NCBI GenBank assembly: GCA_005887945.1
Contig: VBOL01000047.1
Location: forward strand, 1-43,204
Length of the DNA: 43,204 bases
Source: Nitrospirota bacterium
GTDB taxonomy: Bacteria > Nitrospirota > Nitrospiria > Nitrospirales > Nitrospiraceae
Direction: 5' to 3'
Below are positions 6,592 through 9,344 of this stretch, one piece after another (within the stretch, counting starts at the first letter, position 1; every line of letters begins with the position of its first letter). The translations under genes and the position numbers were made by a program. The notes beneath the pieces were generated by a model. The model ran no database searches. It worked only from the letters and a program-made list of their open reading frames with translations, and was not told the DNA's origin.

Positions 6592-7614
6592 CTACGCCGC
6601 TTTGGCCGGCCGCCAGCGAAGCCCGATGTGCAACAGTTCTTGCAACAGCGCGGGATAGGTATAGCCGGCGTGCTCGGCCGAATCCGCAAAATCTTCGTCG
6701 TGGGCAATCTGGGGATTCGGATTGGCTTCCAGGACGTACACGTGCCCCGCCGCGTCCAGGCGCACGTCGATGCGGGCATAGCCGCTCAGACTCAGGGCGC
6801 GATAGACCCGTTTCGCGAGATGTTGAATCTCCGCGGCTTTCCCGTCCGGCAGATTGCGGGCTGCGCCGGAGCGAATCCCATACTTGGCTTGATACGTGCG
6901 ACTCCATTTCACGCGTTCGGTCGCAATCCGCCGGGCGTCCTCCGGCAGCTGGTCCATGAGCAACTCCCACACCGGCAGGACCTGGACCTGCCCATTGCCC
7001 AGCACCCCCACATACAGTTCGCGCCCTTCGATGTACTGCTCGATGAGGGCGCCGGTCCCCACGCTCGCGTGGATGAAGGCGACGCGCTCCTTGAGTTTGT
7101 CGTCATCCTGGACAATGGAGGCCTGCGAGATCCCGAGCGAGGCCTCTTCGGTCACCGATTTGACAATGAGCGGAAAGGGCAGCCACTGGGGCCGCTTGAC
7201 CGTCCGCCCCTGCGGCACCACCATGAAATCCGGGAACGGGATGCGATGGAAGGAGAACAGCTTCTTGGCGAGGACCTTGTCACGCGCCAACATCAACCCC
7301 CGCGGGTTACAGCCGGTATAGGGTACGTGCAGCAGTTCCAGATACGACACGACGTTCTGGTCGTAGACCGCCACCCCGTCGAACTCTTCGAGCAGATTGA
7401 AGGCAATGTGCGGCTTCCCGTCTTCGATGGCCGAACGAATCACCCCGAGATCGCTCTTGACCCCCAGCGGCGTGACGGCATGCCCGAGCGTGCGGAGCGT
7501 GGAGACCACATCGTATTCCGTCTTCCACTCGGCGCTGGTCACGTCCTGCCCGGTGCGGGGCTCCGGCGGCACCAGATCTTCGTGCATCAGGACCAGGATG
7601 CGGAGCCGTTTCAT
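6592..7614 (-). CDS. ATP-grasp ligase, D-Ala-D-Ala ligase-like
   Basis: MKRLRILVLMHEDLVPP...; ATP-grasp signatures FPLIVKSVTEEASLGISQAS and YARIDVRLDAAGHVYVLEANPNPQI. Confidence 0.88.
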   Translation of the reverse strand: MKRLRILVLMHEDLVPPEPRTGQDVTSAEWKTEYDVVSTLRTLGHAVTPLGVKSDLGVIRSAIEDGKPHIAFNLLEEFDGVAVYDQNVVSYLELLHVPYTGCNPRGLMLARDKVLAKKLFSFHRIPFPDFMVVPQGRTVKRPQWLPFPLIVKSVTEEASLGISQASIVQDDDKLKERVAFIHASVGTGALIEQYIEGRELYVGVLGNGQVQVLPVWELLMDQLPEDARRIATERVKWSRTYQAKYGIRSGAARNLPDGKAAEIQHLAKRVYRALSLSGYARIDVRLDAAGHVYVLEANPNPQIAHDEDFADSAEHAGYTYPALLQELLHIGLRWRPAKAA

Positions 7615-8810
7615 AGCGCCACCTGATGCCGCCCGCTGCGCAAGTAGGTCATCGTGTGGACGGTCAGCAAAATCGTGAAATCTAACTTCGCCTGCTCCTC
7701 CGCGAGGGGCAGGCGCAAGTGGAGCTGCCGGCAGCGCTGAATCATGTCCTCGAGCACCTGATCGATCGTATATTGGTATTCGCCGGTCCAGGCCGCGACT
7801 TTGCGGCGCACCTCTTTGCGGAAGCGGTTCAAGAAGGTGGCGGCGCTCAGGTGCGCGGCATGGGCCGGAGCGTCAGAAAACAAGCGCTTCAAGTCCGGAT
7901 CGTAAAAAGACGGGCGTTCAATCCCATAGTGTGCGCGCTTGCGGGCATAGTGTTCGCGCAGGGTCTTCTGCAGGTCGGGCAACGGATCGATCTCCTCCCG
8001 CGTGACCACCTTGGGCGGCACCGCCGCCAGCCCCTGCATCAGCCCCTCGACATACTGCAGCTTCTTGAGCACCGGCCAGCCCTTATAGCGGTCGGCCCAG
8101 GTCGAATCGGGCGTGAGCCAGACCGCGAAGGTCTCCGCAAAGTCTTCATCCGGATGGCTTTGGGCATACCACACATCGAGATGCCGCACGAAGCTCCGAC
8201 TATAGGGCCGGGGGCGGTAATATTTGGGGTAGGGCTCGGAGGAGCGCCCAAAGACTTGTTGCCGCCGGCGGAGCCGCCGGAGACGATAGGCATTTTCCAG
8301 AGCGTGGCCGGCCTCATGCCGCAAGATGCGCATACACCAGTCCGGGGTCCCGCCCTCGACCTCGAGCATCTGGTCCAGTTCCAGTTTCGCGAGGCGGGGA
8401 TGGGCCAGATAAAACGGCACGGCAATCCCCGGCACCCCATCCGGCGTAAACCATTCGTTGGACAACCACACGTGGGGACGGAAGAGGAGCTGGCGGGCGG
8501 CAAGTTCGGCGTAGAGTTGCTGAATCTGGGCGGACAGGAAGGCCCCCTCGAGGGTGACGCCGAGTTGGCTCATGGGGAGGGTCAGCAGCTGCTCGTTGGA
8601 CCACGAGACCCAGTCCGGCTCGGGAGCCTGGTGGTCAGACGCGGTCACTTCATGTTCCGTGATCGTTGCATTGACGCCCTGTTCCACGCAGTCAACCTGC
8701 AAGAGGTGCTGTAGAAAATATAGCACGTCCCTCAACATTGCCCCGATTAAGAAGCCTTTCCGTTGACTGTCGCCCATAAAAGTGGAGAAAAAATGTCCGA
8801 TCAAGTCCAA
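7611..8810 (-). CDS. Putative zinc-dependent metallopeptidase (HExxH)
   Basis: MRILRHEAGHALENAYRLRRL with downstream DEDFAETFAVWL; stop overlaps the start of the ATP-grasp gene. Start uncertain (8810 or a downstream ATG). Confidence 0.8.
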   Translation of the reverse strand: MDLIGHFFSTFMGDSQRKGFLIGAMLRDVLYFLQHLLQVDCVEQGVNATITEHEVTASDHQAPEPDWVSWSNEQLLTLPMSQLGVTLEGAFLSAQIQQLYAELAARQLLFRPHVWLSNEWFTPDGVPGIAVPFYLAHPRLAKLELDQMLEVEGGTPDWCMRILRHEAGHALENAYRLRRLRRRQQVFGRSSEPYPKYYRPRPYSRSFVRHLDVWYAQSHPDEDFAETFAVWLTPDSTWADRYKGWPVLKKLQYVEGLMQGLAAVPPKVVTREEIDPLPDLQKTLREHYARKRAHYGIERPSFYDPDLKRLFSDAPAHAAHLSAATFLNRFRKEVRRKVAAWTGEYQYTIDQVLEDMIQRCRQLHLRLPLAEEQAKLDFTILLTVHTMTYLRSGRHQVAL

Positions 8811-8849
8811 GAATGAACCAGCAGAGGCAATAGGTGTCGCAAAGCTGGG

Positions 8850-9344
8850 CTAACGGAGGCGAGGAAGAAGGGCTGGCGCCGTGGCCCAGATGACATCGAT
8901 CACAGACCAGACGTAGGCGCGGGCCCGCTCCGGGTCGGTCTGCCAGTCCGGCATCACTTCGTGCAGATCAAAAATCGGCCGATCGTGGCCAAGACAGACC
9001 TGATTAAACAGGGGAACGTCACGTCCAAATTGCTCCCGAACGAAGACTTGGTGGTTTCGCCCCATTGCAATGACAAGGTCGGCAGCCTCGACCAGTTCCT
9101 TGGTGAGTTGTCGTTGGACGTGTGTGGTGGGATTAGCTCCCTTCTCGCGCAATCGGGACTGGACCCAGTCATGCACCGACTGAGGCTTGGCGTCGATCCC
9201 GGCCGAGCTAACGACGCAGGATCTGCCGGCGCCGAGTCTGGCCTTGAGCGCATACTCGGCAGTCACGCTCCGAAAAATGTTCCCCGTGCACACGAACAGG
9301 ACTGACTGAAGCTTCCCGCTCGATCGGTTCTCATCCCTCCCCAT
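8850..9344 (-). CDS. Low-molecular-weight protein tyrosine phosphatase family
   Basis: LFVCTGNIFRSVTAEYAL (CX5R P-loop) and LVIAMGRNHQVF. Confidence 0.85.
   Translation of the reverse strand: MGRDENRSSGKLQSVLFVCTGNIFRSVTAEYALKARLGAGRSCVVSSAGIDAKPQSVHDWVQSRLREKGANPTTHVQRQLTKELVEAADLVIAMGRNHQVFVREQFGRDVPLFNQVCLGHDRPIFDLHEVMPDWQTDPERARAYVWSVIDVIWATAPALLPRLR

Follow-up and report, generated by a model that had tools for sequence, protein, structure and literature searches.

A co-inherited pair of a Ddl-like ATP-grasp ligase and a Peptidase_Mx zinc peptidase in Nitrospirota and other bacterial phyla

Introduction

To our knowledge, only a few cases are understood in which a bacterial ligase and a peptidase together write and erase an amide modification, most clearly that of RimK/RimB. 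In RimK/RimB as well as RloC/RloA (Pseudomonas), an ATP-grasp peptide ligase is encoded together with a peptidase which removes the ligase's addition, and RloA peptidases are required for growth in hypo-osmotic stress (PMC12239564). Furthermore, branches 7 and 8 of the graspetide-type ATP-grasps travel with peptidases in the absence of a precursor, and sequential action of the two enzymes has been proposed for them, in a text on these branches which mentions neither Nitrospira nor Acidobacteria (PMC8939145). Hence, the initial annotation of the locus described here was right in regarding amidoligase-peptidase pairing as a known theme.

The locus lies on a 43,204-nt contig of a Nitrospirota bacterium (VBOL01000047.1), analysed in full and called the window in the following. 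Like RimK/RimB, it encodes an ATP-grasp ligase together with a peptidase, and no candidate precursor gene is constant among its ORFs of at least 70 aa across related loci. RimB, however, is a retropepsin-like aspartic enzyme and RimK a member of a different ATP-grasp family, whereas the window pair combines a Peptidase_Mx protein with a Ddl-like ligase. Accordingly, a Pfam search with both proteins returned only Dala_Dala_lig_C, ATP-grasp_3, ATP-grasp_4 and Peptidase_Mx, and no RimK or RimB family. The ATP-grasps of branches 7 and 8 also form a family different from that in the window. While the general theme is established, a description of this particular pair was not found in our literature search, in which no paper joined 'zinc-binding metallopeptidase' with 'ATP-grasp'; an earlier passing mention is possible.

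Organization of the locus

When the sequence is read directly, the ATG of the ATP-grasp gene (7614-7612) and the TGA of the peptidase gene (7613-7611) share the four nucleotides ATGA on the minus strand (Table 1), as originally proposed for these two open reading frames. The listed coordinates and strand of both open reading frames and the 4-nt overlap stand; the peptidase gene needed correction at the 5' end. Its listed reading frame (7611-8810, minus strand) starts from TTG 8810, which is almost certainly wrong, as the first ~54 codons are non-coding in relatives. Because the match to relatives begins only at about residue 53-55 and many of them carry in-frame stops upstream of this point, the start is placed at about 8648, probably at GTG 8648 or otherwise at GTG 8687, 13 codons upstream. 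In all 30 nearest loci of the same family (L004-L033), the ATP-grasp gene starts exactly at the peptidase stop, and the -4 overlap is also found in 8 downstream-arranged loci outside Nitrospirota.

Table 1 Features of the peptidase/ATP-grasp locus (positions in the window)
Feature	Position	Strand	Basis or remark
ATP-grasp amide ligase with Ddl fold (second gene)	6592..7614	-	340 aa; PF07478
D308, acidic residue at the E. coli DdlB Leu282 position	6691..6693	-	profile alignment to 1iow/1iov
ATGA stop/start overlap (translational coupling)	7611..7614	-	sequence; recurs in relatives
Peptidase_Mx zinc peptidase, first gene of the pair	7611..8648	-	345 aa from GTG 8648 (probable start); PF15887
DEDFAET motif	8130..8150	-	E168, D169, F170, A171, E172 in 80/80
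HEAGH zinc-binding/catalytic motif	8304..8318	-	H111, H115 in 80/80; E112 in 79/80
TGCTATATTTTCTACAG block, -10-like	8709..8725	-	conserved where the reading frame is not; 30 upstream regions aligned; putative function
Conserved 29-nt block TTCATTCTTGGACTYGATCGGACATTTTT	8789..8817	-	upstream of the peptidase; one copy per genome, at this locus only

Both upstream blocks are kept in relatives whose reading frame is broken there. The 29-nt block has no match in Rfam and, given its single copy per genome, a structured RNA or regulon was dropped as a lead to function. A further minus-strand gene (8850-9344), about 200 bp upstream, encodes an LMWPc low-molecular-weight phosphatase-like protein, and the upstream alignment places it likewise in most close relatives.

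The zinc peptidase

The first gene of the pair encodes a member of Peptidase_Mx (PF15887), which it matches with about 29.5-29.8 bits (gathering cut-off 27), with the HExxH motif and the downstream glutamate both present. The same model matches 80/80 aligned homologues; PF15890 is also touched by 11 of them and PF07737 (lethal-factor-like) by two. Within the nearly invariant motifs (Table 1), comparison with the gluzincin motif found in lethal-factor-like and Peptidase_Mx folds points to E168 as the likely third zinc ligand. An AF2 model of high confidence (pLDDT 92.8) finds the Peptidase_Mx-type protein 4l7a from Bacteroides caccae as best solved match, followed by zincin domains of the lethal-factor type, all matches being weak (E of 0.14 for 4l7a and above for the others). 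With 4l7a, the window peptidase shares the Pfam family and the catalytic HExxH ... E core, but its helical C-terminal half of ~150 residues has no counterpart among solved structures. The likeness to lethal-factor-type domains is one of fold only. Since no obvious signal peptide can be read from either protein of the pair, both are probably cytosolic.

Three phage-like IMG/VR contigs (L086:6001-6543, L087:5977-6600 and L088:6001-6498) carry peptidase relatives beside which no ATP-grasp was detected; the copy on L087 has a shorter length of 207 aa and retains HEVGH and EDFAET. In addition, the assembly of the window contains a contig-edge fragment (G000:C357:3-164) with 96% identity to part of the window peptidase, representing either a second copy or a strain mixture.

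The ATP-grasp ligase

With 99.5 bits against PF07478 (cut-off 24), the second protein is a clear ATP-grasp, so that the initial reading of the locus as a Ddl-like ATP-grasp beside an HExxH peptidase with a downstream glutamate holds for both partners. Its AF2 model (pLDDT 93.6) was compared with solved structures using Foldseek, and the 50 best matches were all Ddl-type ligases (E of 4e-25; TM-score to a Ddl structure 0.75 by query and 0.83 by target). Fold as well as ATP- and Mg-binding residues of the Ddl enzymes DdlA/DdlB, which provide the closest solved structures, are thus retained: K113, R281, D283, E296 and N298 are invariant in the alignment, and K152 is present in 62/62 members of the peptidase-linked clade. 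Taken together with the motifs of the peptidase, both active sites are intact, with essentially invariant catalytic residues.

In contrast, the residues for the second substrate differ from those of Ddl. We take the positions of Ser281, Leu282 and Tyr216 in DdlB to be those which determine D-Ala-D-Ala specificity and second-substrate binding. Among the 62 peptidase-linked ATP-grasps, the Leu282 position is acidic in 61 (Glu in 47, Asp in 14, as in the window), and 61 have Trp or Phe at the Tyr216 position; residues at the Ser281 position vary (A/E/D/S/Q/G). By alignment, the D-Ala-D-Ala specificity residues are hence absent from the window enzyme, and these changes suggest a different amine as acceptor, which may be cationic/basic or carboxylate-free. 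Model scores fall far under the Ddl cut-offs as well (TIGR01205, 113.7 bits vs 245.65; NF002378, 129.7 bits vs 243). The VanA model gives 50.5 vs a cut-off of 775, and the other Van models listed are also below theirs; on scores and residues, a Van-type system was rejected.

Whether the window enzyme is the sole housekeeping Ddl, as the initial annotation had allowed for, is answered by its own genome: a search with the ATP-grasp retrieved a second Ddl-type gene of 30% identity between murB and an FtsQ-like gene (L002; assigned from sequence and gene order). The window ATP-grasp is therefore not the sole Ddl, and the housekeeping identity was discarded. The proposal of a cell-wall peptide as substrate is likewise weakened by the lost specificity residues and the absence of cell-wall neighbours. 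A known anti-phage defence system was also dismissed, since neither protein matched any PADLOC family at E 0.1.

In the ATP-grasp tree, enzymes encoded downstream of the peptidase in the same direction form one clade (support 100/99) and those in convergent arrangement another (100/100), grouping apart from the former. This one peptidase family is therefore linked to ATP-grasps of two subfamilies. The convergent subfamily is found at L147, L148, L150, L151, L154, L158, L164, L168 and L169; here, His or Gln takes the place of the ATP-site lysine corresponding to K152, and Gly or Ser that of D308.

Ddl and the KamA-linked ATP-grasps fall outside both clades. The latter, known for instance from the Thioflavicoccus plasmid pTHIMO01, are the nearest non-Ddl sequence relatives found; they lie on separate branches and beside radical SAM aminomutase and diamino-acid genes, without an Mx peptidase. 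Within the phylum of the window, KamA-like radical SAM genes adjoin two Ddl-like ATP-grasps at L067, L069, L070 and L071, the last three clusters also containing a GNAT-like domain or gene. These clusters are different ones and probably make peptides.

Distribution and co-inheritance

According to the initial annotation, the proposal depended on the two genes co-occurring in other genomes, and they do so far outside the genome of the window. Peptidase_Mx is present in 40/148 Nitrospirota genomes, and the same 40 contain an ATP-grasp match at E <=2e-87. Even copy numbers match, as the same four genomes carry two copies of each gene. In the family of the window, the peptidase is found in 127/147 genomes.

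Outside the phylum, an IMG/VR scan found the complete pair on one contig, close to its end (L085). The alignment headed by the peptidase of this contig comprises at least 519 relatives in the genome collection, of which the best 80 were kept. These span Acidobacteriota, Rokubacteria, Myxococcota, Gemmatimonadota, Eisenbacteria, Planctomycetota, Kiritimatiellota, Lentisphaerota, Omnitrophota, Aminicenantes and Chloroflexota. Among myxobacteria, a Corallococcus record (L136) contains the pair. As three of the 80 loci end too near a contig edge, 77 offer enough flank, and an adjacent ATP-grasp is present at 71 of these 77 loci (from the best 80 of at least 519): directly downstream in the same direction at 61, including L125, whose reading frame runs on and which was therefore counted from tblastn positions, and convergent at 10. 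The remaining six have none nearby. For these lone peptidases as well as for L161 and L163, which end early, a related ATP-grasp is encoded elsewhere in the genome (8 loci, E 1e-67 to 1e-115).

Among 119 Acidobacteriota genomes, the peptidase is found in 27 and a close ATP-grasp in 23, 21 being common to both; a close ATP-grasp thus occurs in 21/27 peptidase-bearing genomes vs 2/92 others, where "close" means E <=1e-110, a line set after viewing the scores which splits the linked clade from paralogues. The Fisher p values for co-occurrence are ~4e-37 for the Nitrospirota and 6e-16 for the Acidobacteriota; they are indicative only, both because of this later choice of line and because the genomes are related and independent events are overstated. 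In the acidobacterial genome G290, both genes lie on separate contigs and in G276 ~4 kb apart, both being kept in either case. Plasmid-borne homologues of the peptidase were not found; phage homologues were absent from the annotated phage collection, while some occur on IMG/VR contigs.

Considering the overlap in 30/30 family loci and the co-occurrence statistics, the pairing goes far beyond chance, and the pair is inherited together in at least 10 bacterial phyla. Pairwise distances of peptidase and ATP-grasp correlate with a mirror-tree r of 0.91, also without Nitrospirota, which fits joint inheritance; any two genes passed on vertically would be expected to show such a correlation, and it is no proof of interaction.

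Gene neighbourhood

When all ORFs of 70 aa or more from 96 loci were clustered, no third cluster was represented at more than 9 of the loci, and close co-directional neighbours are mostly unrelated between loci. The pair is hence a two-gene unit without a constant third gene. A biosynthetic cluster was rejected on these grounds, and ORFs of this size give no support for a peptide precursor encoded at the locus.

In the family of the window, a paralogous pair (L072, L074, L075, L079 and L081) is preceded by an MscS-type channel gene 11-66 bp upstream and surrounded by homologues of glgX, treZ and glgB, as read from sequence. These MscS-linked copies group together as a single clade in both trees (support 0.83 for the peptidase and 0.995 for the ATP-grasp), which hints at a role in osmotic stress for this paralogous lineage only.

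Possible function of the pair

Because it is co-inherited in at least 10 phyla without any other constant neighbour, the pair very probably constitutes an uncharacterised two-enzyme system. Our main reading, to which we assign a probability of roughly 45%, is a cytosolic ligase/peptidase pair acting on one shared substrate with a logic like that of RimK/RimB, built from unrelated families. The ATP-grasp would activate a carboxylate with ATP and then couple it to an amine, and the co-translated Peptidase_Mx would cut the same class of bond, either removing the ligase's addition or trimming the acceptor prior to ligation. Since the pair has no precursor, transporter or further enzyme as a constant companion, its substrate would have to be an ordinary cell constituent such as a protein tail or a small peptide or amino-acid metabolite. 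Opposing writing and erasing as in RimK/RimB would be the likeliest form; shared substrate, opposing direction and stress-related use are what we infer for it. The original suggestion of a make/trim pair is compatible with this, co-inheritance fitting sequential as well as opposing action.

In a sequential scheme, the peptidase would first cleave a protein or peptide of the cell, after which the ATP-grasp would ligate to or modify the released end, giving one product without reversal. In favour of this, the ligase gene follows the peptidase gene and is coupled to it, and the same order of events has been proposed for graspetide-type branches 7 and 8 (PMC8939145). Yet no partner substrate gene is conserved, and the convergent arrangement in one clade means that gene order is not essential, which leaves this scheme rather doubtful.

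That the pair makes and turns over a soluble, peptide-like osmolyte, following the logic of the NAGGN osmoprotectant system, appears unlikely. This reading draws on the succession of MscS, peptidase and ATP-grasp with glgX, treZ and glgB homologues in one clade of Nitrospiraceae loci, and the osmotic hint for the pair comes from this MscS link in one paralogous clade of one family; most loci, the window included, lack osmotic neighbours. The NAGGN system has GNAT and asparagine-synthase partners, neither of which is found at the pair.

An alternative cell wall of the VanA/VanX kind, in which the ligase makes a dipeptide other than D-Ala-D-Ala and a dipeptidase destroys the normal one, would account for a Ddl fold adjoining a zinc peptidase. 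It is very improbable, with the ATP-grasp far under every Ddl and Van cut-off shown, the Ser281 and Leu282 positions of DdlB unconserved (the latter acidic), a peptidase of Peptidase_Mx rather than VanX type and no cell-wall genes nearby. That the genes merely share a transcript and have unrelated functions, for which the frequency of overlapping genes in operons speaks, is hardly credible in view of co-inheritance in at least 10 phyla, persistence after rearrangement and unlinked partners that are still present.

Significance

If the shared-substrate reading with writing and erasing is true, the pair would be a second write/erase amide pair, structurally unrelated to RimK/RimB and spread over relatives of nitrifiers, Acidobacteriota, Myxococcota and many uncultured phyla. 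Tentatively, and against the odds as we see them, it may even represent an unrecognised, widespread reversible modification of proteins or metabolites in environmental bacteria of at least 10 phyla, in which a ligase derived from Ddl would tag a housekeeping substrate through an amide bond and a zinc peptidase, unrelated in fold, would erase the tag. As the unit comprises just two genes, co-expression makes the question of the substrate directly testable.
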